A stretch of 64,000 bases of DNA from Physcomitrium patens (lineage: Eukaryota > Streptophyta > Bryopsida > Funariales > Funariaceae). Both the position numbers and the translations under genes were made by a program. The stretch spans positions 13,603,590 through 13,667,589 of the forward strand of contig NC_037274.1 in NCBI RefSeq assembly GCF_000002425.4. Direction: 5' to 3'. Shown here one piece after another: positions 1 through 61,797 of the stretch (its first letter is position 1; every line of letters begins with the position of its first letter). The notes under the pieces are model-generated. The model searched no databases, was not told the DNA's origin, and saw only the letters and a list, made by a program, of their open reading frames with translations.

Positions 1-1602
1 ATAGCTAATAATGGAAGAATTGAAGATATTTGATTACGATGGTTGCTAGCAACCTTGAAAGATATGACGTTTGAATGGTACAATCGTCAAGCAATGGATC
101 AATTTTCTAATTGGAAGCATTGAAGAATATATTTTTAATCCATTTTTGCGCAATTGGTTTTGAAGATTAACTTCGAGAAAGATTAATGACTAGCAAAATG
201 GATCCAAGAGAAGCAGTGGAATCATACTATAGTCGTGTGGCAGATATACTCCGCAAGTGGCCAAATCACCAAATGCCAAAGGCTTTTGTATTGTCCATAT
301 TAATCAACAGAGTGCACCCACCCAAACTAAAAATGTTTGTAAAAGAGACTCAACCAAATATGATAATTGCATCTCTTAATAGAACTAAGGTTTGGAAGGA
401 ATGCCATTATGATCAATTTTTAACTGTGGATGCCACAATGATTCCAATTCAAGGCAGCTATCAAAATCCGACTTGAAACGGATCAGTGGGTAGTTAACCA
501 TGGATGTTAGAAACAGTGGCCAATTTCAGTGCCAATATTTAGGGGCCAGTTAATGTCACCCTATTACAAGAGTAACCGAACATAATAACAGCGTATGCTC
601 CATATTTTCCATATCAACAACAACCAACAAAGTTATCAATAATATTAGCCCTAAAAGATTCCAATAAAGCCTTGTTATTGAATCTGACGAAGAAAATGGA
701 AGAAATGGCTATTAATTTGGCCAAGAATAACAAGACGAGGCACAAGCCTATCAACACTAGGACTAATGTATGGTATAGTAAATGTAAGCGCTATAGTCAT
801 TTGGTAAGAGAATGTCCTTCACCATCACAAATGATGGATCAATGTATATTTTATGAAGGAAAGTACTTAATAGCTAATTGTTGGAATTGGCAAAGGCAAC
901 AACAATTCAATAATCAGACCATGATTCCACCGACTTAGTGGGAAGTCAATCAAGTTCAAATGAGAAATATGTTTGGATAGAATGGAAATCGATCTAATCA
1001 ACAAAATCAAGCATTCAATAACTTTCAAAGTTCCAATTTTAATCAGGGGTCTACATCAAATCCCTAGACCTACAGGAAGGAGTAGTAGAGGTATCAGCAA
1101 TATGCTCCACCAGCATCATCAAATCAAGTACCCTTCGTACCAATGAGACAACCAAGATCATTTTCTAATCCTACATGGAACAAGTCTAGTAGGTATATAT
1201 TGATAGAGACACCCAATATGCCTGATGGGAGCACAAGAAGACTACTTTGTTATTTTTGTTGTAGACAGATTGGTCTTTATGCCAATGAATGTCCCAATCT
1301 TAGAGCCAGTGATGATTATGCGTCAGTGTGTGGATATTGCAAGCAATTGGGGCATACTTATCAACAATATAATACTCCATTCAATTTCAATAATGGGGAT
1401 CAGCAGATCTAAAGCCAAGAAAAAATTGATGAGATAAATTAAGGTCCTCAAGATTCTCCAGTAAATCGAGTGAAATGTGTCTAAGCCGTTCTTACCAGAA
1501 GTCATCAAAAGGAGAAAAGACCAATTCAACATTTGGATGAACCTGATGCGTAGAGCCAATTTGATCCAATTATAGGGACATCCAATCCAGGTTCCATTAC
1601 GG
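1..1602 (+). pseudogene. Element A gag, first part (degraded)
   Basis: Gag packages element RNA into cytoplasmic particles. Open segments lie at 186-476 (capsid-like helical region, with KWPNHQMPKAFVLSILINRV), 672-938 and 1143-1412. Two zinc-knuckle pairs are visible. The first (about 775-885) is badly eroded. The second (about 1243-1370) has CYFCCRQIGLYANEC followed by CGYCKQLGHTYQQY, where the last Cys has become Tyr. Element B gag at 5797-8006 is the best match in the window and keeps the same order. Several TAG and TAA stops sit where B has Gln or Trp. The frame runs up to the Y1 solo LTR at 1603 and resumes at 2859. Identification as retrotransposon gag is firm; the clade is inferred from B. 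Confidence 0.85.
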
Positions 1603-2854
1603 TGTCGGGATAGAGAGAGTTTGTCTCAAGAAAACGCTGGGTTCTGGCTGTCACTAATTATTCAATCAAGCTTGAAAATAAGCGAAGCTCTAAGTTTATA
1701 TATAATTTTTTTCTTTTTGAGTAATTACACTAAATACACAATCCTCAAGTAATCCACAACTTCCAAAATATGATAAAATCTTATAAATCCTTGTTTATTC
1801 TTATGTGGAGATTTTCCCGAACTTCAACACCTCATATCTCTTAATCCGACCGTCCAAACAAACTGTAATTTTACATGAAGTACTGATGTATTCTTATTAA
1901 CTTTTATAACAATTTTCAACCGCAAATTCATTGCAGATCTTGAGATATCTTGAAATCCCTAACAGCCGCTTCAAACCCTTGTCTTTATACATCCGCGTGC
2001 AATTTTCTTTATATCTCACAAAATATAAGCTTAAATGCCACAAAATTTATATGTAAAGCTTCTTAACACAAAATTTCACATTCTCCCAAATGTTTGAGCC
2101 AAAAATTCGTCCGAAAACTGAAGTTATGGCTTCAACCATCACTACAAACAAACCCGCTTACTTACTGCTTTTGATTTGGAAGCATCGCCTTCAACTCCTT
2201 ACAACTCCTTCATATGAATTCTAAAAGCAGTAATTCTTTCGTGAAAGATGTAGGCCTTGAAATCACCATTCCAGTCGCATCTTTCGATCTTCAAAAGCTA
2301 CTATAAAACTCCTCGTACTCTCAAAAGAGTAACAGTATGTCTTAAATAAACACCTTAACTTCAAACGGTTATAATTTTTTCACCCTAACTCCAAATCCTC
2401 TAATTTTTGTACACAAATTTTTCTCCAAAACTTTACAACTCTAGCTTTTAATCTCCGAATGCCTCCTTTGAAGTCGCCGAAATCCTTCTTAAGGTCGTGG
2501 GCAACCTCCTCAAAGCCCATTAGGCATGGTATTTGACCAATAGGGATGAAGTTCGTCATTCCTTGCCTTCATCCAACCATGCCTTGCTTTCATCCCTCCC
2601 AATTAGCTTCCTACTAGTTTAGATTTTCATCTTTAGGTTTCCACCTTTTCCCTAGGTTTCATACTAAATATTTAGGTCCTATATATATATATATATTAAT
2701 GTCAAAATCAAAAGAAATAAAGAAACAAAGTAAAGTTTCTTATACCAACTCTTTTTAATTTAATCTACTAGCCACTCTAACACACATCTAGATTTATCAA
2801 TATATAATATGTTTTAGGTAATTTTTATATACTGTAAGTATTTACAGTATGACA
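1603..2854 (+). repeat. Solo LTR Y1, inserted in element A gag
   Basis: It starts TGTCGGGA and ends ATGACA. It is flanked by ACGG (1599-1602) and ATGG (2855-2858), a 4-bp duplication with one C-to-T change; removing the insert and one repeat restores the gag frame. The reverse complement matches 11550-12818 almost end to end. It holds no ORF, only a short (TA)n near 2681-2697 and an 8-bp-arm hairpin at 2830-2849 beside the end. Orientation is assumed by analogy with D LTRs. A solo LTR is the simplest reading, but no internal region of this family is in the window. Confidence 0.85.
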
Positions 2855-2888
2855 ATGGGTCTCTTATCGAGTATGAAACTTGACTCGA

Positions 2889-4829
2889 TGTTGTATTACG
2901 TGCTATCTAGCTTAAGAACGTACCAAGCATCTGGATGTAGAAGATATAATAATGTTTTGCAAGTATCCAAGTAGTCTAGTGGATTTCAACCATCTAAATA
3001 CAAACTATTTCGAATTTCAATGTAAAAGCTTAATCCCAATACAAAGTACTTAGAAACACTATTTTTAATAACTTCAAGATATTATAAGTACAAATTCTTT
3101 TGTTATTTGTTAGTTTTATTTTATTTTATTTTTATTAGTATTATTTTTTATCTGTATTTTTATTTTAATTTTTTATTTGTATTTTTATTTTAATTTTTTA
3201 TTTTTTTTTATTTTATTTTTTTAATTTTTTAACCCTAACCCTATACACAGAGCTTCGGCAAGCTATAATTCTCAATCTGATCGTTCAATTGTTGTAAAAC
3301 TTCTACCACTAGTGTCTTTGCAAGTCTTTTAAATGTTTAAGAAGTTTCAATCCAATCTAACTTACAGATTGCAAGAAAATGCTATAAATCCACACTGATG
3401 TCCCTTGACAGTCACCTAGAAAGTTGATGACGAATCTTGACTTATAATTTCTCCTTCTCCAACTGTTAATTCTCATTCAAACCTTGTGTGTAGCTCCACC
3501 TTTAAGTCCTCGACTTATCACGTCAAAATTCACCTTATTTCAGCTAGTAGATCTCTAGATATTACAAAAATCCTAAACAATCTCAATATATCAATTTTTG
3601 ATACCTCTCTACGCTAATGATCAAATATCCTCTATCCGTATAGTTAGATTAATACAAATTTTTGCATGCACTTGGCATACTCAACCATTTAGTCACCTCT
3701 AAAATTTCAACCACAGATGTCTCTCTAATTTTGTAAAACAGTCAAGAGTATTAACCTTAACTTTATTGCAAAAAAAAACCCAAATCACAATACAAACACT
3801 GACTTTGAGCAACGATTGCCAAAATCCTCCCAAACCCTCTGAAAACTAAGTCTTACATCTTTCAAAGGAGCCTGAAGCTAGCTCTTTGACCTTAAAATCC
3901 GAATCTCCCAATGCCTTCTTCCTTTTCCTCCTTTTTTCTTTTAACTCCGTGACGTCCCCTATTCTTCCGCCCTAGACTCGGAATTGGAACAACAGACCAT
4001 GCTTCCATGGAATTTCCACCTCTAAGAAGATCTTTCTATAGAAAGGACATTTCCTTGAAACGGCATAGAGAACGGAACAGCTTGAAATGGAACTGAAGCC
4101 TCTGTAATCAATACCTCATTGGGTTGCCCAACCAAGTCACGTCTCATATTAGATAAGAGGCCCGTAATAGGACCTGAATTGGATGTCCTTGTAATTGGGT
4201 CAAATTGGCCCTTCGCATCAAGCTCACCCAAATGTTGAATTGGTCTTTTTCTCTTTTGTCGACTCATGGTAAGAATGGCTTGGACACATTCCACCCGATT
4301 TATTGGAGTAATTTGAGGACCTTGATTTATCTCCTCAATTTTTCCTTGGCTTTGGATTTGCTGATCCTGATTATTGAAATTAAACGGAGCATTACATTGT
4401 TGATAAGTATGCCCTGACTACTTACAACTCTGACACACTGGAGTGTAATCATTATTGGCTTTGGAATTGAGACATTCACTAGCATAATGACTAATTTGTT
4501 TGCAACGGAAATAACAAAGTGGTCTTCTTGCACCTCTATCAGACATATTGAGTGTCTCCACTGGTATATACCTACTAGGCTTATTCCATATAGGGTTAGA
4601 AAATGATCTTGATTGTCCCGTTGGTATGGAGGGTACTTGGTTTGATGACATCGGTGGAGCATATTACTGATGTCACGTACGGTGGTATAGCTTGCAATGG
4701 GGTGACATTAACTGGCCCCTGAATATTGGCACTGGAACTGGCCACTATTTCTAACATCTAAGATGACTAAATATTAATAAAATCTTTTTTATTTATATTT
4801 TCACCATATAGTCATGTTACAACACGACA
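2889..4829 (-). repeat. Element D 3' LTR (mosaic)
   Basis: Plus-strand ends are TGTTGTATTACG and AACACGACA. It matches 23185-25124 along its length, but unevenly. The first 50 bases differ at about a dozen sites, 2937-4303 differs at only about five, and 4304-4829 differs at about 36 sites, nearly all transitions. The half from 3961 to 4765 is a captured gag segment, annotated separately. An AT-rich low-complexity stretch lies near 3105-3230. The solo LTR X (8007-9220) is a shorter relative. Confidence 0.85.
3961..4765 (-). pseudogene. Foreign gag fragment captured in D 3' LTR
   Basis: On the minus strand this matches element A gag: A 501-560, then A about 1085-1602, 2859-2888 and 25125-25290, skipping the part that encodes the first zinc-knuckle pair. 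The main frame runs from 4651 down to 4022, 210 codons with one in-frame TAG at 4418-4420. It encodes a second-pair zinc knuckle (CYFRCKQISHYASEC, then CQSCK, stop, SGHTYQQC) and the basic region after it. It lies in sense orientation to D, starting about 65 bases inside the D LTR, so it sits in what should be U3. The same frame and the same TAG occur in the 5' LTR. Element D has its own unrelated gag at 21351-23160, so this is acquired sequence. Whether it was ever translated is unknown. Confidence 0.8.
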
Positions 4830-4843
4830 TCCACCTTCTCTGA
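4830..4843 (-). other. Element D polypurine tract
   Basis: Read on the minus strand, the bases beside the 3' LTR are AGAGAAGGTGGA, a purine run in the position used to prime plus-strand DNA. Element G has the related AGAGGATGGAG at the same place (about 42497-42508). Confidence 0.6.
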
Positions 4844-4866
4844 ACATGTGCATCCTCTGGTATGCA

Positions 4867-5608
4867 TGTAGAATAAGTAGATATTTTCAGAATGTAGATA
4901 CCTAGTGTATGGTGTAAAAAAAGATAGATAACTGGTGAAAAGGTGGTTCAGCAGGTAAAATGGATGAATAGTCTGGAAAAGTAGTTATCATCTGTAGTAT
5001 AGGAGTTGGTATCTCGGGGTAGTATAAGGAGGATGGGAGAGGGGAAGAAAATGCTAGATTGTAATAGTACTGAGCCGAGGATAAGCTTGGTGCTATCTCT
5101 TCTATTTAATTTTCTTGTTTCTTTTGTATTAGTATTGATTCTAGTGAAGAGAATCGATTTAATGAATTAATGTTTGATTTATGAAGTTATTTATGGATCA
5201 TTGTTTACCAATTGTTGTGAAAGATTGAGGATGTATGGAAGTTTCCAGTCACTATTTATCGCAAGGTTGTAAGTTTAGTGGAGAGGAATTGTAATCAAAA
5301 GAATTATCTTGATTAGATTTTGTGGATTGGAAGTTGTTCGTTCTAGGGTTTGGGATATACTTGTGTGTTCGTGAATTATATAGGGTATTGAAATCATTGT
5401 CGTGAATGTTATTGTATTGATACGAGAGAGTGGACAGTAGGAAGAAAAGTTAAGTGTTCTTCGGTATAGTAAGCATTCAGTTGTAGCGGTTAATTGTGTG
5501 ATCCTAACAATTGGAGATCATATATATGGTCATTCCCCATGTTCGAATCCCCCTATATGGATTTATGCTAGGAGGTTTCTTTTGGAATAAGTAAAACAAA
5601 CAATCACA
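4867..5608 (+). repeat. Element B 5' LTR
   Basis: It runs from TGTAGAATAAGTAG to CAATCACA, 742 bp, the same length as the 3' LTR at 16579-17320. Differences between the two are scattered and mostly transitions, roughly 5 percent by eye, so B is not a recent insertion. Related LTRs are the solo copy at 49545-50320 (reverse strand) and the A LTR at 32489-33228. Confidence 0.92.
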
Positions 5609-5611
5609 TTT

Positions 5612-5629
5612 TGGCGCCGCTGCTGGGGA
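5612..5629 (+). other. Element B primer-binding site (tRNA-Asp)
   Basis: TGGCGCCGCTGCTGGGGA starts three bases after the LTR. It matches the complement of the plant tRNA-Asp 3' end (TGGCGCCGTTGCCGGGGA) at 16 of 18 positions; the same primer is known from Athila elements. It marks where minus-strand DNA synthesis began and supports a plant host. Confidence 0.85.
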
Positions 5630-5796
5630 TTGACAACATTATTGAGTGTTAGGAATTAACTATTGAAGCAATAAAGGAGATTAGGAAGCAAACTCAGTAG
5701 AAATAATGAAAGAGTATGGTTATTAAGAATGAGAATTTAACAGCAAAGAGAATAAAGCAATCAAAGGAAAGAACAGAGCGATCGTAAGCAAGAAAT

Positions 5797-8006
5797 TTGT
5801 TGCGTAATGAGCAAGATCATAAATTAAAAAAGAAGCATCGACAAAGTTGGATTAAGCCATGGTTGCATGATTTTTGGCATATTTCATCATACCCAGAAGA
5901 CGATCGACCTCTAATATTTCAGAAGTACATATCGTTAAAGAAATTGCCAAGAGCACTCGCGGGGAGCGCTACTAATAATCCAGCAAACCTCTCGAAGCCG
6001 TTAATGAAAAACGAGGAAGGCACAGAGGAATTAGGTACCCCACTGGGTATCTTCTCAATTGGAAATACGTCCGATCCTAATAAGACTGGTTTTGAAGATT
6101 GGTAGAAATCACTTGCCAATAAAGCCCAATTCAAAGTATATCAAAATCTGTCGTTTTTACCTCATATTCAACTAGTAAAATTATTTGGAGATAATAATAG
6201 CCAATCACGAAGGCTTGGAAGTCCAAAAAAGACTTTTGTGGGAGACAGTTTTTATTTTAATAAGAAATTGAGCAGAACACCAGCATCTTTAATGACGTTC
6301 GGAGGACCAACAGTCTCGATTGAAGTTCAAATGGGTGTAGTGGGCGATCGAATGACTAGCGTTGCGCCATTATCTACTTTTCGGGGTTTGCCAGGTGCGG
6401 ATCCAGATCAACATTTATCTCAATTCTTGACGACATGTGTAGCCAATAATGGAAGAACAGAAGACATTTGGCTGAGATGGCTGCCAACGACATTGAAAGA
6501 CATAGCATTTGAGTGGTATAACCGCCAACCTGTGGGACAATTTATCAATTGGGAGGTATTAAAAAATATATTTTTAGCCCATTTTCGACCAATTGGTTTT
6601 GAAGAACGTCTTAGAGAAAAATTAATGAACAGCAGAATGGTACCAGAGGAAGCGATATAGTCATATTATGGTCGTATAGCGGATATACTTCAAAAATGGC
6701 CAAATAACCAAATACCGGAATCATTTGTGTTGTCTATATTGGTTAATGGACTACACCCACCAGAATTAAAAATGTTTGTAAAGTAGGCCCAATCAGCCAC
6801 CATTGCATCATTTCTTGAGCGAGCAAAAGTATAGGAGGAATGTCACTATGACCAAAACTTAACAGTTGGAGCCACGATGATTCCATCTCAAGGAGGTTAT
6901 CAAATGACAAATTTGAATGATGCATCGGAAAGTTATCTGGGAAGGAATGATTATGGTACAATTCCACAAGGAATAGTGGATGCCATTCTATTGCAAGCTG
7001 TACCACCATCATCATCACACTCGTATGCGCCTTATTTTGCATATCAGAAACTAATACCTACAAAGGAATTGCCAAATGCATTGGTATCAAGGGAATCCAA
7101 TGAGTCATTGCTATTAACATTGACGAAAAAAATGGATGAATTGGCTGTGAATCTGGCCAAGGATAAAGAAAAAAAGGCATTAACCAACCAATATGCATCC
7201 CAATGTCTGGTGCAGCAATTATAAGGGGCAAGGTCATTTAGTAATAGAATGTCCTTCACCATCCCAAATGACTATACAATGTACCTTTTGTGGAGGCAAG
7301 CATATTACCACCAACTGTTGGAATTTACAGAAGCAACAACAACTCAATAACCAAATAATGTCTCAACCAACTTTGTGGAATGTCAATCAAGTACAAACGA
7401 ATAATAAGTTTGGCTGGAATGGAAATTGAGCGAATAAACAAAATAGGAATTATTCTAATTTCTTCAACTCTGAATTTCATTAAGAAGGTGTATCCAATAC
7501 TCACGGATCGGCGATGAACCAAGCAAGATACCATCAATATCCACCCATGACGAAGCCAATGCCAGACTCTACAGTAACAATTGTTCAACCAGGATCCTTT
7601 ACTCATCCGACATGGAAAAGACCTAGCCATTATATACCCGTAGAGACACCCAATATCCTTGAAGGAGTTGGCAGGAGACCACTTCGTTGCTATCGTTGCA
7701 GACAAATTGGTCATTATGCTAATGAATGTCCTAATCCAAGGGCTAGTGATGACTATGCTCCAATATATGGAAATTGTAAGCAGTCTGGTCATACTTATTA
7801 GCAGTGCAATGCACCTTTTAATTATAATAATCGGGACCAACAAATGCAAACAAGCCAACCAATGGAGGACAAAGGCCCTGTTCAATGAGACTCACTAGTA
7901 CATCGTGTTGAGGTGGTGAACGCAAAGCTTATCAGAGGCCAACAAAAAGATAAGAATCTAATTCAGGACATGGATGAACCAATCGCAGGAAAACAAGTAG
8001 CGCCAT
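5797..8006 (+). pseudogene. Element B gag with four zinc-knuckle positions
   Basis: Structural protein of the particle. A basic N-terminal part (5797-6105) is followed by a capsid-like region (6238-6900) with PGADPDQHLSQF and EWYNRQPVGQFINWEVLKNI, typical of plant Ty3 gag. A Lys-rich stretch follows, then two pairs of zinc knuckles: CSNYKGQGHLVIEC and CTFCGGKHITTNC (about 7208-7320), then CYRCRQIGHYANEC and YGNCKQSGHTY-stop-QC (about 7690-7805). Two of the four have lost a Cys to Tyr. In-frame TAG stops replace Gln or Trp codons (for example 6658 and near 6785, 6831 and 7799), and there is a frameshift near 7190. X interrupts the frame at 8007; it resumes at 9225 with the frame kept. No single start is intact. 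Confidence 0.88.
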
Positions 8007-9220
8007 TGTCATATTACGTGCTTTCCTGCTCGAGAACACGCCAGGCGTCTAGCTGTAGAAGGTAGTATGGAGATTCGCCAATATTCAAGCAGTTTATCGG
8101 TTTTTGACTGTTGGAATATAAACAACTACAAGAATACACCGTAAATCTATACGGATGCCCTTTGACTGCTTGTCGAAGTCCTTTTTGCCCCAGCCAGTAG
8201 GTCTCTAGACGTTACAGAGAACCCCGAACAACCCAAACTGCTAATCTTCGATACCGCTTTATACTCACGATCTTGTATCCACTGACTGTCATGTTAGATT
8301 AACCCAATAAATTTCATTCACTCCGCATATTCAATCCTATAGACACCCTTTTAATTCCTCATCACAGATGTAACTTGATTTCACAAAACAGTCAAGAGTA
8401 ATCAAACCCACTTCATTAAAAATCTCGATTCACCATTACAACACTGACTTCAGCAACGATTACCTCAATCTTCCCAAAATCCAATTCTCTGTCTTTTTTC
8501 TCCGCCCGAAGCATGAAGCTAGCTCTCTGATTCTTCAAAAACTCCCCAAAACTTCTTCTCTCCCCTCTCATTTCTTAACCTTAATTCTGAATTTCTTCAA
8601 TCCTCCGTCTTGGATCTGGAATTGGCTCTTGCCGTCAGAGCTTTCTCCTCTGTTTTTACCTTTAAGAGATCCTTTTACTGAAAAGACGTTCCCGGAACGA
8701 CACAAAGGACGGAACAGCCTGAAACGGAATCGGAGCCCTGTAATCGGGACCACATTGAGTCACCCGACCAATTCAGGTCTCATATTGGGTAAGAGTCCAG
8801 TAATAAGACCCGAATATTCCCGTAATTGGATCAAATTAGTCCTTTGCGTCAGATTGGCTGAGGTCCATAGTAAGACCTGGATTTTCCCATAATTAGACTG
8901 CATTGGGTTGCCCGACCAATTCAGGTCTCATATTGGGTAAGAAGACCTAGATTGGATGTCTTGAAATTGGATCCAATTGGTTCTTCGAACTAGGCTCACC
9001 CGTCGTGTGAATTGGTCCTTTCTCTTCCTGTTGACTTCCGTTATTGGAATCGAATGGAGCATTTCAGTATGCCCCGGCTGACTGTAACAGGGTGACTGAA
9101 AATGGCCACTCAGTATTTGCACTGGAATTGGTTGTTGCTCCCAATATTCGAGGTAACTGAATATTAATAAAAATCCCCTTTCTTTATATTTTCACGGTAT
9201 ACTCGTGTTATAACACGACA
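8007..9220 (-). repeat. Solo LTR X (short D-type LTR), in element B gag
   Basis: It runs TGTCATATTACG to AACACGACA, with flanks CCAT (8003-8006) and CCGT (9221-9224), one G-to-A change apart. Both ends match the D LTR. The part from about 8640 to 9150 carries the same captured gag as D, on the minus strand, but it lacks the zinc-knuckle portion and has a partial tandem duplication (8753-8794 and 8901-8942, period about 148). It is 1214 bp against 1940 for D. Its ORFs are short and not credible. Confidence 0.85.
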
Positions 9221-10570
9221 CCGTCCATGGGGCTAAACGAACCAATATCAAAATTGGGACGTATCTCAATATTGAGACTTCAACAGACTGAGGAACCCAA
9301 TTCGATTCCACATGCTAATTTGCCGGGACCATCAAGATCGATCCCAACTGACCAAGTACCAATACCTGTACAGCCCAATAAAAGATCTTATGTATTAAAG
9401 GAACCTTTAGTGGTAGATAAATTAGCAAAGTTACCAACGGTAATCTCAATCGCTAGGAAGGAATTGCTGCAGAACGGAGTAAAATCGAAACCAATGAAAT
9501 GCAAAAGAGCATTGGAAATTACTCTCAATATGAAACCCTACGACATTTTGAGGGATTTGGATGTTATTCAACCTTCAATTATAATGAAGCAACTTTTGGC
9601 TGTAGCACCGGAATGTCGATCTACATTAAATTCAGCGTTAATACGATGAAGATTCCCTACTAAAAAAAATCATGAAGTTAGCTTAAACCCAGATCCGGGA
9701 GCACCAACAATCGATGTATCAATCGATGGCGTTTTAATTCCAAGGGTATAAGTCGATGGTGGCTCCAGTGTGAATTTAATGAATGCGAATACAATGGAGG
9801 ACTTGGATCTAAAACAATTGCTACCTACGACATTGGTCTTACGAATGGCAGATCATAGTCGGGTAAAGTCAATGGGAATCTTACGCAATATTGCCACTAT
9901 AATCGTGGGATTGACATACAAAATCGATTATATTGTATTTCGATTACAGAGTTCTATATTATCGTATTCCATTTTATTGGGTAGACCTTGGCTTTATCAA
10001 GCCCAAGCTAAGAACGATTGGGACCGAGGCACATTGACAATTAGAAAAGGATGGGACTAGATTGTTCTACAGATGTATCTGGTACAATATCATGGAGAAT
10101 CTCAATTGCCAAAATCAGAATTTACATCGAACAACGAGAGTCAATCGATTGAGGTAGATGACGATGCTATAGGTTCATCGCAATTTGAGGTAGGACAAAA
10201 CACTTCAACAGCAAAGGCAAGAATCTATCAATGTGGAAGTCTTGGTGAATATCTACTGCATCAGGAGGATGCGACTAACTCGGATCATGCTCTTGCCAAC
10301 TGGATGAACAATTTCGCAGTCAATAGAGTCAGCACATTGGCACCAGATTTGGGTGGTTTCCATATGTCGGATAATACAAGAAATTTAGATCAAGAGAAGA
10401 TAATTAAATCAGAGGTTGTTGAAGACCCTGTGTGTCAATTAATTAACTTGGGCACTAATGAAATGCCACAGCTAATTAAAGTATATATCGATATTATCGA
10501 TACAAAATTAGATGCTTGGAAACAGTTTTTTGTCTGTCACAAATCTGCCTTTGCATAGTCGTATGCGAAT
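9221..10570 (+). pseudogene. Element B gag C-terminus and aspartic protease
   Basis: It continues gag after X and enters the protease that cuts the polyprotein. The active-site motif VDGGSSVNLM lies near 9750-9771, the DGGS type seen in Tat-like plant elements. The flap and C-terminal strands follow, with ADHSRVKSMG and the distal SILLGRPWLY near 9970-9995, matching the retroviral-type I-L-G-R signature. Stops occur at 9647, near 9750 and at 10058; the one near 9750 lies just before the catalytic Asp. After 10073 an acidic linker of about 160 codons (10073-10555) leads to RT. Element A has the same protease with DGSSSIN in place of DGGSSVN. Confidence 0.85.
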
Positions 10571-11549
10571 TTGAAAGGGATTCCAGCCGACGTGTGTGAG
10601 CACCAGATTATTCTGGAGGAGGGTGTTACTCTAGTTCGTCAAAGACAACACCGGCTTAACCCAAAATATTTCTTTTTAGTGAAAGAAGAATTGGATAAAC
10701 TTCTCGACGTGGATTTTATTTATCCTATTCCACATAGTGCATGGGTGTCACCAATCGTGATAGTACCGAAGAAGAATGGAAAAATCAAGATATGTCAAGA
10801 TTTTTGAAAGTTAAATGCGGCTATTAAGAAGGATTATTTTTCGTTACCATTTACAGATAGTATTTTAGACGCAGTGGTCGGACATGAATGTTACTCATTT
10901 TTGGACAGATTTTCGGGATATAATCAAGTTAAAATTACCAAAGAAGAGCAGTTGAAGACTACGTTTACCACAGATTGGGGCACATTCGCCTATAAAGTAA
11001 TGCCATTTGGGTTATATAATGCCTCGGCTACTTTTCAACGAGTAATGACACAAGCGTTTCAAGATTACCTATGTTTATCAATGGAGATATTTCTGGACGA
11101 TTTCTACACCTTTAACACAATGACTGAACATCTAGCATGCTTGGATAACTGTTTGAATCAATGCGACAAGTTTGTGATATCTCTAAATTCAGAGAAGTGT
11201 CAATTTGGAATACCATCGGAAAAGCTATGGAGACACATTGTCTCTGTTGAAGATATTGCTATAGACCCCGATAAAATTACTTGTATATTGGGGTTACCAA
11301 AGCCAGATATGGTGTCAGCCATGCGCGATTTCATCGACGATGTCAACTACTATCGGCATTTTATTGAATCCTTTGTGGTTATCTGTCAACCGTTAACCCA
11401 CTTCTTAAAGAAACCCCTGTCAGACGGGTCTAACCCAATATGGACTGAAGACTGTACTTTCGCATTCGATGAATTGAAACAAAAATTGGTATCTGTCCCA
11501 ATTCTTGTAACACCTTGTTGGACAAACCGTTTCATGTCTATGTGGATGC
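10571..11549 (+). pseudogene. Element B reverse transcriptase (C-terminus and start of RNase H)
   Basis: Copies element RNA into DNA. Visible blocks in order: HRLNPKYFFLVKEELDKLL, SPIVIVPKKNGKIKIC (10750-10795), a stop at 10805 where Arg is expected, SFLDRFSGYNQVKI, MPFGLYNASATFQ, the catalytic FLDDF near 11092-11106 with both Asp present, then GLPKP and the FIDDVNYYRHFI region. The RNase H domain starts near 11460 and is cut at a DASD motif by Y2. Frames are good from 10874 to 11549. RT identity is certain from the order of the motifs. Confidence 0.92.
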
Positions 11550-11699
11550 TGTCGTACTGTAAATGCTTACAGTATGTAAAAATTAGCTAAAACATATTAT
11601 ATGTTGATAAATCTAGATGTGTGTTAGAGTGGCTAGTAGATTAAATTAAAAGGATCTGGTATAAGAAACTTTACTTTGTTTCTTTACTTCTTTTGATTT

Positions 11700-11750
<51 letters not shown>

Positions 11751-12818
11751 ACCTAAATTTTTAGTATGAAGCCTTGGGAGAAGGTGGAAACCTAAGGATG
11801 AAAATCTAAACTAGTAGGACGCTAATTGAAAGGGATGAAAGCAAGGCATGGTCGGATGAAGGCAAGGAATGGAGCACTTCATCCCTATTGGTCGAATATC
11901 CTGCCCAATAGGCTTTAAGGAGGCTATCCGAGGCCTTATTAGGGATTAAAGTTCCTCTTTCGAGGGCATTCAAAGTTGTAAAGTTTAGGGTTTGGAGAAC
12001 AATTTTTGTACAAAAATTAGGGGATTTGGAGTTAGGGTGAAAAAGTTATAACCGTTTGAAGTTAAGGTGTTTATTTAAGATATATTGTTACTCTTTTGAG
12101 AGTACGAGGAGTTTTACATTAGCTTTTGAAGATCGGAAGGTGCGACTGGAACGACGATTTTAAGGCCTACATCTTTCAGGAAAGGATTATTGCTTTTGAA
12201 GTTCATATGAAGGAGTTGTAAGGAGTTGAAGGCGATGCTTCCAAATCAAAAGTAGTAAGTAAGCGGGATTGTTTGTAGTAATGGTTGAAGCCCTAACTTG
12301 AGTTTTCGTACAAATTTTTGGCTCAAACTTTTGGGAGAATGTGAAATTTTGTGTTAAGAAGCTTTACATACAAATTTTGTGGCATTTAAGCTTATATTTT
12401 GTGAGATATGAAGAAAATTGCACGCGGATGTATAAAGACAAGGGTTTGAAGCGGCTGTTAGGGATTTCAAGATATCTCAAGATTTACAATGAATTTGCGG
12501 TTGAAAATTGTTGTAGAAGTTAATAAGAATACATCAGTACTTCATGTAAAATTAGAGTTTGTTTGGACGGTCGGATTAAGCGATATGAGGTGTTGAAGTT
12601 CAGAAAAATCTCCACATAAGAATAAACAAGGATTTAGAAGATTTTATCATATTTTGGAAGTTATGGATTACTTGAGGATTGTGTATTTGGTGTAATTACT
12701 CAAAAAGAAAAAAATTATATATAAACTAAGGGCTTCCCTTATTTTTAAGCTTGATTGAATAATTAGTGACAGCCAGAAGCCCAGCATTTTCTTGAGGCAA
12801 ATTCTCTCTATTCTGACA
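11550..12818 (-). repeat. Solo LTR Y2, inserted in element B RNase H
   Basis: It starts TGTCGTACTG and ends TTCTGACA. Flanks are ATGC (11546-11549) and ACGC (12819-12822), one C-to-T apart. Removing it restores GTG-GAT-GCG-TCC and the RNase H frame. It is the inverse of Y1 with high identity. The (TA)n tract is 47 bp here (11702-11748) against about 17 in Y1. The hairpin with arms TACTGTAA/TTACAGTA is at 11555-11574. Confidence 0.87.
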
Positions 12819-13190
12819 ACGCGTCCGATGTTGCTATTGGATTCGTTCTTAGTCAAAAGGATGAAAAAGAGTTAGATCATCCCATATATTATGCGAGCCG
12901 ACAATTCGTTGCTGCAGAATAAAATTATAATACTACCAAGCGAGAGGCCCTCGGAATGATCTACTCTGTACAAAAATTCCGCTACTATCTCCTTCGATAC
13001 TCATTTGTGTTCCACATTGATCATAATGTGCTTAGGTACATGATAAATAAACCTCAATTGAGTGGATGAATTGCTCGATGGGTGTTACTTCTACAGGAAT
13101 TCAACTTTAGAATTAACGTTTGACCCGACAAGAAACATGCCAATGCGGATTACTTATCCCATTTATCTAATATATTAGATAATGAGCCGA
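12819..13190 (+). pseudogene. Element B RNase H
   Basis: Degrades the RNA strand during reverse transcription. After Y2 the domain resumes with SDVAIGFVLSQKDEKE, HPIYYASRQF, a Glu-containing TTKREALGMIYSVQKFRYYL, and FHIDHNVLRYM with the third Asp. It ends at the ADYLSHLSN block, the usual A-D-x-L-S-R junction with Arg changed to His. Stops occur near 12920, 13068 and 13122. The first catalytic Asp is in the piece before Y2 (11545-11547). It leads directly into the integrase. Confidence 0.88.
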
Positions 13191-13204
13191 TAAACGATGC
13201 TCTT

Positions 13205-14494
13205 TTGGATGCACAATTATTCGCTGTGGATGTCATTACATTCGAATATGGTGAATTGATCCAATATCTAACGTTTCAAACTTTTCCTATTTCTTATAAT
13301 GAAAAATTAAAGAAGCGTCTGATTTTAAAAAGTGTGCCATATACCATGATTGGAGATGCCTTGTACAAACAAGGGCAGGATGGAATTTTACGCCGTTGCA
13401 TCTTTCAAAGTGAAGTTCGTACAATTTTGGAAGGATGTCATTTGGATAGTTGTGGTGGATATTTTGCGAGAGACAGTACTGCTCGCAAGGCTTTAATAGC
13501 CGGATATTGGTCGCCCACAATGTTTTATGATGCACACCAATTTGTTCGTCGTTGTGATCCCTGTCAATGAATTGGTCGACCCACGGGTACTTCAGCAATG
13601 CCGTTAGTACCAATCTTGGCACAGGCACCATTTGAGAAATGGAGAATTGATTTTGTTGGACCCATTACACCAGCATCGAGACATGGACAAAAGTGGTATA
13701 TTTTAGTCGCTACGGACTATGTAACCAAATGGGCGGAGGCTATTGCTATCCGCAATGATAATGCCAGTACGGTGGCTACATTTCTATATGAGAATATTAT
13801 TACTCGATTTGGGTGTCTGAAGGAATTGGTTAGCGATCATGACACCCATTTCATAAATGCTACCATAGCAACCTTGACGAACACATACAAAATCAAGCAC
13901 AAGAAAATAACACCATATCACGCTCGGGCCAATGGACAGACGAAAAAGACCAACAATATTCTATGTAAGATTTTAACAAAAATAATTTTGGGCACGGAAA
14001 TGGATTGGAATACTAAATTGTTTGCGGTATTGTGGGCGTATCATACTGCATATAAAGTGACTACCAATTCTACACCATTCTAATTAGTGTACGGGCAAGA
14101 AGCAATATTATCCATTGAATTGGAAGTTCAGAGTTTGCGCATTGCGTTGGATGAACGTCTTAGAGATAAGGAATCACTTCAATATTGGTTGGTAGAGTTG
14201 GACAAATTGGATGAAATACGGGCTACAACTCTCTTCAACATGGAAGCAACTCAAAAATGGCGGAAGAGTTACTATGATAGTTAACTGCGTCCGAAGAATT
14301 TTATGCCCAATGATTTGGTATTGTTGTTTGATAGCAGGTTTAATCATTTTTCAGGCAAATTTCAAGTTCGCTGGCATGGGCCATATCGTGTGATTGAAGG
14401 ATTTTTCAATGGGTCTGTTCAATTGGAGGATTTCATGGATCATCGATTCAGTACCCGCATTAACGGGAACCGATTACGGTTATATCATACATAA
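13205..14494 (+). pseudogene. Element B integrase
   Basis: Inserts the cDNA into the chromosome. The N-terminal HHCC domain spans about 13430-13570, with CHLDSCGGYFARDS (second His now Tyr) and CDPCQ. The core domain has WRIDFVGPI (first Asp, near 13650), TDYVTKWAEA, LVSDHDTHF (second Asp, near 13835) and YHARANGQTKKTN, where the expected catalytic Glu is Lys (GAA to AAA). The C-terminal GPY/F module is at 14303-14494 with GKFQVRWHGPYRVIEGFF and RINGNRLRLY. Stops are at 13567, 14081 and 14281. There is no chromodomain after it, which fits Tat/Athila rather than chromoviruses. Loss of the catalytic Glu alone would make it inactive. Confidence 0.92.
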
Positions 14495-14811
14495 AATCCG
14501 AGATGGGTTTTCAATTTCTAGAGGAGGTCACGTCGAATGTACTTAGGATAGACCTAATTAAGTGCGTTAAGGTGTAGAGGCGGCTGAAAGGATAGTTAGT
14601 AATTACTAATGTGTCAGATGGGACGGGGATGAGAAACGGACAGTAGAGGTAACATATTGTCGTTATCACCACTAGGTAAAAGAATAGGAGTGGGGCACCC
14701 ATTTATGGTCATTCTCAGTTGTCGCATTCTGTTATTGTTTCTTTTCGGTGTTATAATTTCGGGTATTTTTGGAATACTGGAGCGTAGTATTGATGGTTAG
14801 AGCTTGAAAGA
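14495..14811 (+). other. Element B spacer between integrase and extra ORF
   Basis: About 320 bases after the GPY/F module, without a convincing frame. It may hold a leader or splice acceptor for the downstream ORF, as in other elements with a post-integrase gene, but no signal is clear enough to name. Confidence 0.4.
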
Positions 14812-16490
14812 GTGTGCGTCATGGCGATGAAGAGTACAAAGAGAGCTACGGACAGAGAAGAAAGTGGCCGAAATGTGAAAGCTAAATGCAATTTAGGACC
14901 ACCATCCGTAGTTATCGTTACCAATATAGAGCCTATGAAGCTGGAGATTTGTTGGACGCCAAGGAGAATACGAGATTTTCGAAACGTACAAATGTTTTAG
15001 TTTTTACGAAGGTCAGATAATTTGCCTTCAATTAATGTGGCATTAGTGGAAGAATACATTGCGAATTATGATCCACAGGATGGATCGAGCGTAGTACAAG
15101 GACGCATTATCAGTATTGATGAAAAGATCTTCGAAAAAATACTATTTCTTTGAGTAGGAGAGATTGCGGTGGGTGCTAAGGAGTTCAGTGACTTCCGACC
15201 AGGAAGTTATTTCAAAAGTGGCATGTCATCATTTGAGAAGAACCAAGGTTGGCGGACGGCTGAGGCAATTACACTAGAGCTCATAGAATGATTGTGCTTT
15301 GTGCTAAGGCATCTAGGGTTATATCGACACAACACATATATTTCAAAACGGTTAATGTTTGTAGTAGTAGGGACGTTTGAAGGGATGGTGTTCAATTGGG
15401 CAACTTATGTAGCAACCCATATTCATGCGGAAATGGGAGCCAAGCACAAAATATGAAAGTTTACAGCATTGCTACATTCTAATTATGTGTATGCTGTGAT
15501 TGCATACACATTGCGGCAAATATCGCCAGTAGAGGGAAGTTCTAAACTAGTGCCAGTGCCTCCACAGCGAGAATGGAATTTGTTGGCACAGAATGTCAAT
15601 ACAACGGAGGTAATACATAAAACTGGAGAATCCAGTCATCTAGTGGCACCCCAAACGGATCCGATTCGTTCAATGGTGGAGGAGGAGAATGAAGTCCCGA
15701 TGTTGTTAGATATCAATTAGTTAGCGTTTCTATAGGGCCGACTGTCGGAAGGCGTACATCTTAAAAATTCTTTATTGAAGTATATTTTACAAATACATTG
15801 TATGGTACAAGCATTAGATGTAGAGGGCAGTGATAAACTGGAATTAGAGGCAAGCAAAAAGGTGATATCAGAGCAGACACAAAGAATTGAAGAGCAAGAA
15901 CGGATCATCCAAGCAAATGTAGAATCTAAGCTGCTATTAGAGTGACAAATTGGGGAACAACAGGAAGCTTGGGACAAAAAAAGAGAGCGCATGGTGGAGA
16001 CCCACAGGCAAGAACTATTCCAGGCTCGCAATCATTCAATTTTGGAACTGAAAAAAGTGAAGGGTTAGTTGGTAATGGAATGAAAAAAGACCGAGTTATT
16101 GGCGCAAGAGAAATTGGTATTGAGTGACCAATACAGATGTGAAACGGAGTAGTTAAGGGCTGAAATGGAGGCCTTGAACACCAAAGTGACAAGATTGGCA
16201 GAGGATTTAGTCAATATTGGTCAAGCACAAGTATCGACGTTGCCAGTTCCCGAAGTTCCAGAAGAGAAGAGTCACTTTCAGTGCCAGTTGGAATTGAGAG
16301 ATGCCTAGATCCTGAAATTGGAAGCTCAAGTCTGTGAACTGGGTGAGTACAATGAAGACCTTTTAGCTCAGTTAAGGCAGGAGTCAATGGAAGGATTGGA
16401 AGAGGACAAAGATTTACAATTGGAATTGGAATCGGTGGAACCAATAACAGATACTGCGGCAATTGATTAATTAGATAGGCCAGAGGAATC
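14812..16490 (+). pseudogene. Element B extra ORF after integrase (mobile-domain-like, coiled coil)
   Basis: A decayed reading frame of roughly 550 codons between integrase and the 3' LTR. The N-terminal half is globular, with VQGRIISIDEKIFEKILFL (near 15100), FRPGSYFKSGMSSFEK and HNTYISKRLMFVVVGTFEGM. The layout loosely recalls the putative plant transposon protein domain often found in plant Ty3 elements. The C-terminal half (about 15800-16450) is rich in Glu, Gln, Lys and Leu, a likely long coiled coil. Stops near 14998, 15152, 15288, 15454, 15718 and beyond break it. No transmembrane segments are evident, so an envelope role is not supported. Function is unknown. Element A keeps only the last 30 or so codons, fused to its protease. 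Confidence 0.6.
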
Positions 16491-16560
16491 GTAATTTTTG
16501 TAGAGTTTTGTTAGATAATTTTTAGATAGGTATCAATTGAGTGTTTGCAAGGATGCTGCA

Positions 16561-16578
16561 CAGTTAGGAGTAGGACTA
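16561..16578 (+). other. Element B polypurine tract
   Basis: CAGTTAGGAGTAGGACTA lies directly before the 3' LTR, in the place of the plus-strand primer. Element A has the close relative GTAGATAGGAGTGGGACTA at 32470-32488. It is only moderately purine-pure. Confidence 0.6.
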
Positions 16579-17320
16579 TGTAGAATAAGTAGTTATTTTC
16601 AAAATATAGATACCTAGTATATGGTGTAAATAAGGATAGATAACTGTTGAAAAGGTGGTTCAGCAGATAGAATGGATGAATAGTCAGGAAAAGTAGTTAT
16701 TATCTGTAGTATAGGAGTTGGTATCTTGGGATAGTATAATGAGGATGGGAGAGGAAAAAAAAATACCAGACTACGATAGTACTGAGCCGGGGATAAGCTT
16801 GGTGCTATCTCTTCTTCTTAATTTTCTTGTTTCTTTTGTGTTAGTGTTGATTTTAGTGAAGAGAATTGATTTAATGAATTAATATTTGATTTATGAAGTT
16901 ATTTATGGATCACTATTTATCAATTGTTGTGAAAGATTGAGAATGTATGGAAGTTTCCAGTCACTATTTATCGCAAGGTTATAAGTTTAGTGGAGAAGAA
17001 TTGTAATTGAAAGAATTGTCTTGATTAGATTCTGTGGATTGAAAGTTGTTCGTTCTAGGGTTTGGGATATGCTTGTGTATTCATGAATTACATAGGGTAC
17101 TGAAATCGTTGTTGTGGATGTTATTGTATTGATATGAGAGAGTGGACAGTAGGAGAAAAAGTTAAGTGTTCTTCAGTATGGTAAGCATTTAGTAGTAGCG
17201 GTTAATTGCGTGACCCTAACAATTAGAGCTCATATATATGGTCATTCTCCATGTTCGAATCCCCCTATACGGCTTTATGCTGGGAGGTTTCTTCCAAAAT
17301 AAGTAAAATGAGCAATCACA
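16579..17320 (+). repeat. Element B 3' LTR
   Basis: 742 bp, TGTAGAATAAG to CAATCACA, colinear with 4867-5608. The target duplication ATGCA follows at 17321-17325, and element D resumes there. Confidence 0.92.
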
Positions 17321-23160: not shown

Positions 23161-23162
23161 GT

Positions 23163-23180: not shown

Positions 23181-23184
23181 TTAA

Positions 23185-30260: not shown

Positions 30261-30299
30261 GACATATTATCTTCTTTCACAGCCATACTCCTCATTTTA

Positions 30300-42496: not shown

Positions 42497-42508
42497 TCCA
42501 TCCTCTCA

Positions 42509-45250: not shown

Positions 45251-45263
45251 TCTACCTCAAGCT

Positions 45264-45281
45264 TTCACGTTGGATTCAACA
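45264..45281 (-). other. Element G primer-binding site, decayed tRNA-Trp type
   Basis: The minus strand reads TGTTGAATCCAACGTGAA, 15 of 18 matches to the tRNA-Trp complement, four bases from the LTR as in D. Confidence 0.65.
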
Positions 45282-45285
45282 CTTA

Positions 45286-47681
45286 CGTTGTCATGTTGTG
45301 ATTTGGTTACTATATGAAAATAATGTAATTATATATTTAACATATAATTTACTAAGTAACATGGTGAGAGCCATGTCAATAGATTTTAGTTGGTTGAAGA
45401 ATATAATTTGATTATTACCTTGAAAAGAGGTTGTTTAAAAAGATTACTATAGAATTTGTATAAATTTAATTTTCTTTTGATAGTGGCTTTTAAGATTGGT
45501 TTTGGTTGATAGTAACTTCTCAATATTTAGAGCCACCTTGTTAGATATTGGTGACTTTTGAAAACTTATTTTGGTTCTCTTATATGGTGTTTAGAGCATA
45601 AATTATGTAAATCTTATAAGAAAAAGGATTGAAGGATTTTGGTAGCAAAGGGAGTAATAAGGGCACCAATATAGATGAATGGAGATGGATGATGAAAATC
45701 TCCATTCTTATTGGTCAAAAATCATGACCAATGGACTTTGAGGAGGCTGCCCCAGGCCATATTAGGGATTAGGATTAGTTTTTTGGGGCATTTGAGCTTT
45801 GAAGGCTAGGATCAATAAGTTTAGTTTTTTTGCTATGATTTTGGTATAAAACTTATATGATTTGGAGTTTATATGAAGGAGATATAGGCGCTCAAAGTTA
45901 AGGTGTTGATTTGGGAGCTATTGTCACTCTTTTTGACATAACGCACGCATACAAAGGACAATTGAGGATCGATGACTGCGACTAGAGAAAGCAGTTTTGC
46001 GGCTATACTTTTTGCTTATTGCTTGCTGGATTCCAAGTTGGAATGAAGGAGTTATTAGATTTTGAAGTCAGCATATGCAATCTAATGGTAGTAAGTGACC
46101 CGATTTACTAGTGGTTGTGTCTTGAGCTATATCTTGAGCAATTTGATAAGATTTTAACTCAAAATTTCAGGAAATGTGTAAATTCATGTTAATAAACTTT
46201 TCACATAAGTTTGATGACATTTGAATATTGGATTCTTAAGATATTAAGAAAATAAAGCTCGGATTCTTGTAAATTAGGGTTTAAAGTATTTACTATGGTT
46301 TCTTAGATGCTAAATGATCGGAAGTAAATTTGTCATTGTTTTATTTTGTGGTAAAATTTAAAGGTGAATTCTACCTATCCTATAAATTTTAGACAAATTG
46401 AACAGTTAGATCAAGAGTTATGAATTTCTAAAGTTCAAGAAGAGAAAACCCTTCTCTGGAAAAATATGTTTTGAAGGGATTTTGTTATATTTTGAGTTTT
46501 ATGCAAAATAAAGGAGTTTTGGAAGCTAAGACAAGATTCATATAAAAGGTTTAAGCTACACTCTCTACAGCTAGATACCTAGTGTATTCCCAGATAACAA
46601 ATCACGCTATATGATAACGTCATATTATATGTGATCTTATTTGAGAATGCATTGGGCACCTAAATATGGAAGATAAATAGAAATGCAACAACAATCCTTT
46701 CAACTCTAATATAATCTTAAATAAATTTTAAGTAATCCTTAATAATCCTAATCAAACTTTAATCAATCCAAAATAAATTTAAAAGAAATTATAAAAGAAA
46801 CAAAAAAAAAGTCTTAAATTAATCTAAAAGAAAAATAATAAAAAAATCTCAAAGAAATATTAGAAATAAAAAAATTTAAAGAAATAAAAAATAATCCTTT
46901 AAACATATTAAAAATAGAAATCTTAAATAAAGCCTAAATAAATTCTATTTAAATCTTAATTTAATCCTACTTAAATTTTTTATAAAACTTAATCAAATCT
47001 TAGGTCAAATTTTGTTTAAAAAATTAATTAAAATCTTAATTAAAATCCTAATTAATCTTAATCAAATTTTAGGTTAAATCTTTATGAAATCCTAATAAAA
47101 ATCCTAATGAAATCATAATGAAATCCTAATGAAATCCTAAATTCTAGACTAATTCTAATGAATCTTAGTAAAACTTTAATTAAATCCTAGAAAAACCTTA
47201 GAAAAATTCTAATCAAATCTTAATCAAATCTTAGTCAAATCTTAATTAATCTTAATTAATCTTACTTAAAAATTTCTTTATAAGTTTGATCTCAAATTTC
47301 ACTCTCTAATATATAAAAGAAACTTAGAATTGTTGTAGATGTACTATATTATGTTTGAAGATTTGATTTTAATCCAAGTTGACAATTGGTCCTCTCTAGG
47401 TATCAAAGTTTTGGTAATTTGAGATAATTTTTGCTATAACCTATCGCTAATTTTTTCTTAAATATGCCTAAATCAAATTCTTATCTCATTCCACTTTAGC
47501 TTATTTATATCTCTATTTAGTAAATAATAGTTCTTTCTATAAGAAATAGCATTAAGACTATACTTTTTGCTACCTTATTATAATTTTTCTTATTCTTTTA
47601 CTACATCTTTTTATTAGGCTCTTCTATAATAATATCCATATTTTTTTATTTTTTACTATATTGTCATATTATCACATCACA
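45286..47681 (-). repeat. Element G 5' LTR, interrupted by Y4
   Basis: The LTR begins CGTCATATT (TG to CG) at 45286, is cut by Y4 and continues to CACATCACA at 47681. The degenerate tandem array of AATCCTAAT-type units is at 46715-47272. It is about 1.06 kb without Y4, shorter than its partner because it lacks an internal segment. Confidence 0.7.
45289..46617 (-). repeat. Solo LTR Y4, inserted at the G LTR edge
   Basis: It runs TGTCATGTTGTGATTTGG to TATGATA (CA decayed to TA), flanked by a perfect ACGT (45285-45288 and 46618-46621). It is a relative of Y3 and Y5 through its whole length. No ORF. Confidence 0.8.
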
Positions 47682-59193: not shown

Positions 59194-60014
59194 TTACACT
59201 TCTTTTAAAGGAAAAGTTTGACAAAGAGCGGTGATCACATGTTGAAAAAGTCTAAGATGTAGCAAATTATATTTGCAACGTATTTTAATCTTTGTTTCTT
59301 TTGAAGGTAGTTGATAGGTCTTTTTAGCCATTGGCAACATCCTATTCTATGACAAAAAGATCACCTTATTATTTGATCATCATAAAAACCTTCATAACTT
59401 CCTTCAAACAAAATATTTATAATATTATTATGACTCGTTTCTACCTCAAATAAAATCACCAAATATCGAGACTCTCTTTTCAAGTTGTGATACGAAATAT
59501 GTTGTATCTTGCCATCTATTCAAGTAAAAATATATTGCTCTTGAAGGTCTTCATTTCTCCTAAAAGCTATAATAATCGCAATGTCTCCTTTGGTAAGTTA
59601 GCAAATGATGGTTCTTCACTTGAATTTTTTGATTGTGGTGTTGCATCTCTTGAATGCTATAATTACATTGAAACTACAAATAAGAATAAAAGATAGAATA
59701 TAATCTTATTTAAATTATATTTCTTTTATAGAAAAGATTTACTATTCTTTATTTTAATTTTAATCGACGTTGTTAATAAAAAGCTTTGACCTTCTTTGTA
59801 GTATTTGTAAGATTTTTTATTGGCTTTTATGTGCATTTGCTAATATTATATCTGTACCAATAAATAAGATATTTCAACCTAAGTTGGTGCCGCCTTGAGT
59901 CTAAAACTTCTTTTACCTCAAATTCTTGAATATTACCTACTTCTATAGGAGGCGGTGGTATTTACCTTCTTCTTGAAATATTCACTATCTTATATGGTTC
60001 TAAAATAAATACAT
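59194..60014 (-). pseudogene. Element E2 3' noncoding region, chromodomain and integrase end
   Basis: 59194-59769 matches the E 3' noncoding region. 59770-59955 encodes a chromodomain remnant (FEVKEVLDSRR, YLIYWYRYNIS) that keeps the aromatic-cage Trp lost in E. 59960-60014 is the end of the integrase C-terminus and breaks at Y5. The plus-strand open stretch 59487-59696 is antisense to this element and not a gene. Confidence 0.82.
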
Positions 60015-61598
60015 TATTGTGTTGTAGTTCGGCTACTATGTAAAAATAATATACATATATATTTAATATATAATTTATTATACAATATAATAAAAATGAT
60101 GTTATTAAATTTTAGTTGATTTTAAAGTATGATTAGATTATTACTTTGAAGTAGTTAGTTTAAAAAGGCTATTATTAAGGTTGATTTTATATTGATAATA
60201 ATCTATATATATTTAAGGCTACCTTTATTAAATACTAGTGACTCTTAAAATCTTATTTTATTTTTTTATTTAATATTTAAAGCACATATTATACAAATCT
60301 TATTAAAAAAAAAAAGATTAGAAAATAATTACTATATAAAAAAGAAGTAGTTAGGCCAACCATATGAATGAATAGAGATGGATGATGAAAATCTCCATTT
60401 TATTTGCCAAAATTCATATCCAATGGACTTTAAGGAAGCAACTTAAGGTCTTATTAGAAATAAGGATTATTCTTTTACAACCATTTAAACATCAAAGATT
60501 AGGGTCATCAAGTCATCAAGTTTATATTTTTGAGTATGATTTTGATAAAACTTTTGTGTGATTTGTATTTTTTTGAAGAAGATATAGGTGCTCAAAGTTA
60601 AAAGGTCAATTTTATACCTATTGTCATTCTTTGGGATATTTTGAACATATAATAAGCGTTCTTGAGAATCAAACTATGCGATTAAAAGTTTAGTTTAAAG
60701 AGCTACATTTTTTATGCAAAAAAAAAGATTTAAAAATAATTTAAAGAAGCAATGATTACTTGAAGATAAAACTTTCAAATTGAGAATTGTCAGTGAGTCG
60801 ATTTCATGAGATATTTGATTGTAGCCATATCTTAGGTATTTGGATAGATCTTTGGATAAAACTTTTTATAAATGTATATTACTATGTTTTTAAGCTATAT
60901 TCCAAATTTTGTAGCATTTGTATTTTGGTTTTTTAAGATATAGAGAAAATAGTACCAATTAATTATAAATTGAATTTAGGGCACCTACTAGGATTTTTAA
61001 GATGTTAAAGAATTGAAAGTAGAATTATGGTTTATTTTTTTATGATAAAGTTTAAGAATAAAGTATAAATTATCTAAAAATTTGAAAAGAAACTAAAAAA
61101 TTGAATCAAGAGATATGAATTTTTAAAATTCAAAGATAAAATATTTTGTAAGAAAAAAATATTTTAAAAATAATTTGATACAATTTAGGCATTTTATGCA
61201 AAGTAAAGAAGTTTTTGGAAGCGAAGATTTTATATATATGTAAAAAATGAAGTTATGGAGCTATGAAAAAATTCTGATATAAAGATAGATTTTTGAAAGG
61301 AAATTATGGATTTTCTTTGAGCTTAATAAAGATCTAGCTTACCAACAAATGATTAATTATGACTTAGTATAGTAAAAAATATTGGGATATTTCTAGATGC
61401 TTTAGAAAGTCTTAAGTACAAAGCTACTTAAATATTAAAGAATTTTTATTAATAGAATATCTTTTGATATTATTGTATTTATTTATCTTTTATAATAAAA
61501 ATATATTACTTATTCGAACTTGGTCAATAAGTTAAAGCTAAACTTTCTACAACTAGATACCTAATATATTCCTAGATAGAAAATTATACCATACAACA
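60015..61598 (-). repeat. Solo LTR Y5, inserted in E2
   Basis: It starts TATTGTGTTGTAGTTC (TG decayed to TA) and ends CATACAACA. The flanks are ACAT (60011-60014) and ATGT (61599-61602), each one transition from ACGT. It is related to Y3 and Y4. 1584 bp, longest of the family. No ORF. Confidence 0.78.
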
Positions 61599-61797
61599 AT
61601 GTAAAATATGGGATTAATTTTTATAGATTCTAGCAGATGTAATTGATAAGTGATTAAATTGACTTATTCACAAATAGAAAATGATCCAAGTCTACAAAAA
61701 TCTAACTTATTATAAAAGAAAATAGTTTAAATACTATGATGAAGTAATCATACCTTATCACCAATGTGGAAATGAGGTTGTTCCATGCAATAGGCAT
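61599..61797 (-). pseudogene. Element E2 integrase C-terminal fragment
   Basis: Aligns with E 27004-27200 (the GPF/Y region), with many stops. It is bounded by Y5 on the left and Z on the right; E2 resumes at 63633. Confidence 0.75.

Follow-up and report, generated by a model that had tools for sequence, protein, structure and literature searches.

CG-centred insertion is very probably a habit of a whole lineage of long terminal repeat (LTR) retroelements in the moss Physcomitrium patens, spanning at least four LTR types: the integrase appears to read a CpG in the middle of a 4-bp target site, and the duplicated CpGs later decay. The elements most likely belong to the Phygy clade of Ty3/gypsy elements. 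The habit was analysed in a stretch of 64,000 nucleotides (contig NC_037274.1, positions 13,603,590 to 13,667,589; hereafter the window), a nest of retroelements in which eight insertions (Y1 to Y5, D, X and G) carry 4-bp target-site duplications (TSDs), and in 58 distinct genomic copies of their LTRs.

CG-centred duplications in the window

Every junction in the window was placed by script, and the eight 4-bp duplications all came out exactly as they had been given in the original prediction, which was made from the letters of the window only (Table 1). A literal CG is present on at least one side in six of the eight; Y5 reads as two decay steps and Y3 has none. CG makes up 1.18% of the dinucleotides of the window (observed/expected 0.51), and the probability of finding CG on either side in at least six of eight sites is about 5e-9 when sites are treated as independent. 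Two control Ty3/gypsy elements in the same nest, T and C, have perfect 5-bp duplications without CG.

The frames of the empty sites were checked by reading a few codons around each. They are in frame with ACGG at Y1 (Gly-Ser-Ile-Thr-Gly), TCGG at D (Asp-Ser-Val-Gly), CCGT at X (Ala-Pro-Ser-Met) and ACGC at Y2 (Val-Asp-Ala-Ser), and at Y1 the CG copy encodes the residue found in a related frame. As had been proposed, the interrupted frames fix the junctions of these four insertions; at X and Y2, however, they leave the CG itself unfixed because both observed copies of the duplication are synonymous.

Target sites across the genome

LTRs of the Y1/2, Y3-5, D and X types were sampled across the genome, the G family lying outside the sample, with control C for comparison. 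We read 30 of 40 scored matches for Y1/2 (of 5377 first-look candidates), 10 of 40 for each of Y3-5, D and C, and 10 of 39 for X. Sets of ten were picked for end-to-end match before their flanks were seen; for the Y3-5, D, X and C types, 81-base stretches were read at both ends and the inner side of full-length members was excluded. Three pairs of loci showed near-identical or identical flanks at two places (L015 and L017, L053 and L055, and control loci L107 and L119; in one case part of C7 recurs on the small contig C33, and the others are repeats on C15 and on C5), and L017, L055 and L119 were removed before counting. The removal of two duplicate loci from the four types left 58 distinct copies, one of which (L009) is the window's own Y2. 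Two ends were adjusted by hand (L011, shifted one base; L071, LTR end read as CGATA), and the LTR-end strings for the combined tally were picked after the ends were seen.

CG occupies positions 2 and 3 of at least one outer flank in 43 of the 58 copies (26/29 for Y1/2, 3/9 for Y3-5, 4/10 for D and 10/10 for X), bearing out, together with the window figure, the claim that CG-centred tetramers are far from chance. When the one-step decay products TG and CA are also accepted, the count rises to 57 of 58 (28/29, 9/9, 10/10 and 10/10, respectively), and the 100 outer flanks divide into 59 CG, 19 TG, 16 CA and 6 others. No CG was found anywhere in the nine distinct 5-base outer flanks of control C, three of which pass the CG/TG/CA rule. 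Perfect duplications without CG enrichment had been named in advance as the result that would speak against a CpG preference. Genome-wide, 13 of the 14 perfect duplications in the sample are NCGN, the other being CCAT (L047), and the claim survives.

In the Y1/2 type, left and right flanks agree at 0.81 when compared over 4 bases, against 0.15-0.24 at lengths 2, 3 and 5-8. CG lies on both sides in 14/29 copies, on one side in 12/29 and on neither in 3/29 (GTGG/GCAG, CAAT/AATT, ACAA/ACTA), and all 11 perfect duplications are NCGN (three ACGT, three ACGC, two CCGT, and GCGA, ACGG and TCGG). In the reconstructed sites, CG has a frequency of 69% at offset 1 and of 0-7% at each of the others; the first TSD position is A in 52% and T in 9% (vs 33% background T), position 4 is its mirror image, and bases outside the duplication are only slightly biased (relative entropy no higher than 0.11 bits).

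The flanks of Y1/2 copies are CpG-depleted (CG 1.43% of 88,558 dinucleotides, GC 33%), and CG is outnumbered there at least fourfold by TA, by TG and by CA. The suggestion that such an integrase would favour methylated or CpG-retaining DNA found no support in these measurements; rare CpGs are chosen out of CpG-poor DNA. Literal CG is kept more often in the types closer to the query (X, 89-93% identity; Y1/2, 91-92%, the window copy aside) than in D (84-86%) and Y3-5 (86-89%), as expected if the duplicated CpG decays over time, insofar as identity to one query may serve as a rough clock.

A single non-chromovirus lineage

D and Y are 57% identical in reverse transcriptase (RT), 47% in RNase H, and 55% in both the core and the C-terminal part of the integrase, vs 20-33% between D or Y and T or C (RT, RNase H, integrase); a place for D and Y in the lineage of either control was rejected on these figures. 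Kinship in LTR or internal sequence links D, X and G, and pol links D and Y, so that the 4-bp CG habit follows lineage and not neighbourhood. On its gag side G matches D, RT and RNase H are absent and only the first part of the integrase is kept: it looks non-autonomous.

The full-length Y copies L039 and L040 are about 8.5 kb long, with LTRs of about 1.27 kb set about 7.3 kb apart, and their internal part of about 6 kb holds frames for a gag-like protein (DUF4100), RVT_1, RNase H and rve (Pfam). In L039, which is of the Y1/2 type (element 995-9544), interrupted coding frames at about 2724-8211 fill nearly the whole internal part (2262-8273); a short element with a coding-filled internal part is established for this type only. 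A Ginger-type DNA transposon was considered for the 1.27-kb Y elements, with their TGTCG...CGACA ends and CG-centred 4-bp duplication, and rejected, because the LTR pairs of L039 and L040 enclose frames for a gag-like protein, RT, RNase H and integrase. The Y integrase frame stops about 54 residues past a KWFxxY motif, and Pfam detected no chromodomain in its decayed C-terminal pieces at E values up to 1. Named relatives of this integrase, among the best 120 of 142, come from the liverwort Riccia and one fungus; no relative was found in viral contigs.

Judged from sequence, D, G, X and Y form one non-chromovirus Ty3/gypsy lineage, most likely Phygy. Phygy is described as a P. patens clade of non-chromoviruses that differs from other plant elements in preferring NCGN (Neumann et al., 2019, PMC6317226). 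A survey of 12 plant genomes reports 4-bp duplications with a GC-rich centre, counts Phygy among the families in which they are commonest, and gives Phygy into Tcn1 as the commonest of 26 cases of insertion at repeated positions, P. patens Phygy being nested repeatedly in Tcn1 elements (Jedlicka et al., 2019, PMC6911290). A liverwort genome is another in which Phygy has been named (PMC12885004). Of the traits ascribed to it (NCGN, mostly 4-bp duplications, short length, a polyprotein that fills the internal part, no chromodomain; PMC6317226, PMC6911290), our elements show the 4-bp NCGN duplication, a polyprotein without chromodomain and, in the Y1/2 type, the short coding-filled build. No difference between Phygy and the D/Y lineage was seen in this comparison by description. 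The NCGN preference is thus already published and not new; a fuller study of it was not found in the open-licence literature, among the matches listed.

How the CpG may be read, and what else could explain it

That the integrase prefers a CpG at the centre of a 4-bp stagger, as originally proposed, is strongly supported: the register is fixed, and the habit tracks the integrase lineage and is lacking in T and C. Because CG lies at a single offset from the cut, we infer that the strand-transfer complex itself selects it. The complex would bend the target sharply at the middle of the stagger, as the integrases of prototype foamy virus (PFV) and murine leukaemia virus (MLV) do at pyrimidine-purine steps, but here CG itself would be read. 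After insertion, each CpG copy would turn into TG or CA, the way CpG does in methylated DNA, masking the motif in diverged copies. PFV and MLV also make 4-bp duplications, favour a central pyrimidine-purine and disfavour T as the first base of the TSD (Serrao et al., 2015, PMC4422553); their preference is moderate and accepts any such step, whereas the centre here is mostly CG.

The simplest rival is that chance or lenient reading produced the motif, since allowing for decay makes many sites readable as NCGN: Y3, Y5 and G all need latitude in the window, the CG/TG/CA rule admits 12.5% of window dinucleotides, and some control flanks pass it. This leniency weighs against the lineage-wide reading and is why only literal CG counts as strong evidence. 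Judged by literal CG, chance is hardly credible: 43 of 58 copies have it, all but one of the 58 coming from outside the window, whereas its background is about 1.4% and none of the nine control flanks shows it. Other observations tell against the lineage-wide reading too: copies with a literal CG are outnumbered by those without it in Y3-5 and D taken together (7/19); L022 matches no version of the site, L031, L035, L049 and L059 match on just one side and L016 solely through TG/CA; and Phygy membership is a match to published descriptions. Two perfect duplications, window Y3 and L047, lack CG.

Both of the latter have a CA centre, as would be expected if the integrase favoured any flexible pyrimidine-purine centre, a taste shared by PFV, MLV and others (PMC4422553), and CG were enriched merely because the DNA was CpG-rich when hit. 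Yet 13 of 14 perfect duplications are CG and none is TA or TG, for all the abundance of these steps nearby, and the flanks are CpG-poor, which makes this account very improbable. We give an equally slight chance to a tether, in which a host factor binding CpG or methylated CpG would bring in the pre-integration complex and the integrase would be indifferent. In line with a tether, the window copies sit inside other retroelements that are presumably methylated, and the site is often met in a TG/CA version; but a tether would place CpGs at varied distances, and the CG is confined to one offset. We therefore keep to direct reading by the integrase.

In the integrase alignment, PFV integrase is the best-scoring solved sequence, and a Glu three residues past the second catalytic Asp aligns with PFV Ala188. 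This Glu is found in 34 of 36 aligned relatives (one Asp, one Lys) and, by motif count, in 84 of the 89 relatives with a recognisable motif among 120; in the motif pattern the counted residue must be followed by a hydrophobic one, and 31 of the 120 fall outside the pattern, whereas the 36-row alignment is free of this condition. The D integrase also has the Glu, there is a one-residue gap beside it in the PFV alignment, and T and C, by reading, have Thr. The residue at HIV-1 Ser119 and PFV Ala188 is reported to act on bases outside the duplication, and PFV Arg329 to contact bases at the site edges and at -2/+5 (PMC4422553). Since little preference is seen here outside the duplication, the Glu offers a lead to CpG choice and only that. 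In a bolder version, direct reading of CpG would be the property of a Ty3/gypsy integrase clade from mosses, liverworts and other sources; the Glu with the adjacent one-residue deletion would be its mark, and all its members would insert at NCGN, possibly preferring methylated CpG. This strikes us as rather unlikely.

Other features of the nest

The older element T' contains Y1, D and C; T lies inside D, with X and Y2 inside T. Rightward, Y4 sits inside G, and Y3 and Y5 each lie in other retroelements.

Table 1. Elements of the window, with their target-site duplications.
Feature	Position	Strand	Left TSD	Right TSD	Description
Y1	1603-2854	-	ACGG (1599-1602)	ATGG (2855-2858)	solo LTR, Y1/2 type (TGTCG...TGACA), in gag of older element T'; inverted match to Y2
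D	2889-25124	-	TCGA (2885-2888)	TTGG (25125-25128)	LTR element, T nested within; pol homologous to Y pol
D LTRs	about 2889-4829 and 23185-25124				97% identical
D integrase region	17538-18449	-			core 17898-18449, C-terminal part 17538-17894; decayed; DHGE at second catalytic Asp
T	4867-17320	+	ATGCA	ATGCA	control Ty3/gypsy element nested in D
X	8007-9220	- (inferred from D LTR and inner flanks of sampled copies)	CCAT (8003-8006)	CCGT (9221-9224)	solo LTR related to D LTR, in gag of T
Y2	11550-12818	+	ATGC (11546-11549)	ACGC (12819-12822)	solo LTR, splits RNase H frame of T
C	25632-32012	-	ATGCT	ATGCT	control Ty3/gypsy element in T'
Y3	37447-38815	+	CCAA	CCAA	solo LTR
G	40750-47681	-	ACGT	ATAT	D-related element, internally shortened; contains Y4
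Y4	45289-46616	+	ACGT	ACGT	solo LTR at LTR edge of G
Y5	60015-61598	+	ACAT (60011-60014)	ATGT (61599-61602)	solo LTR within C-like element

At Y4 (45285-46620), the ACGT site takes in the start of a G LTR. That start has CG where TG is usual, so the base seems to have changed before Y4 inserted. Both G LTRs carry AT-rich arrays with copies at 11-bp spacing (41060-41512, 46900-47260). The D LTR holds an antisense piece of about 510 bp (4162-4671, 24457-24967) that matches the gag of a T-like element (1092-1602) at 81-83%; it seems to belong to the D LTR family, because D LTR matches elsewhere cover the whole LTR, and to be a captured gag fragment. A few bases from the LTR, CACGTCGGGTTCAC and decayed forms of it adjoin D and X LTRs (window 23160-23185; L091, L097). 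We take this sequence to resemble the 3' end of plant tRNA-Trp, and it is possibly an offset primer site. Just inside the terminal TGTCG, the Y1/2 LTR starts with a near-perfect palindrome, TACTGTAAATGCTTACAGTA (window 11555-11574). In T, TGGCGCC opens the sequence within a few bases after the left LTR.

Precedents and significance

Gypsy-type integrases that choose CG-rich targets are known from two other systems. The LTR element ZAM of Drosophila belongs to another lineage. Its integrase selects a CG-rich target, CGCGCg, longer than the one seen here, and binds it directly (Faye et al., 2008, PMC2527525). Ginger1 shares with our elements a gypsy-type integrase, TGTNR ends and CG-centred 4-bp duplications (CCGG in 75%, CCGT/ACGG in 24%); it is described as a DNA transposon with terminal inverted repeats of 40-270 bp, no RT and nearly fixed outer bases (Bao et al., 2010, PMC2836005), whereas the Phygy-like elements have LTRs, RT and loose outer bases.

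To the one-sentence published statement on NCGN, our analysis mainly contributes numbers, a control comparison and a residue that can be tested. With a retroelement integrase that reads CG strongly, the structural basis of sequence choice comes within reach of experiment, the preferences of PFV and HIV-1 being weak. Such reading also ties insertion to a dinucleotide eroded by methylation: with every insertion a CpG is duplicated and then tends to decay.

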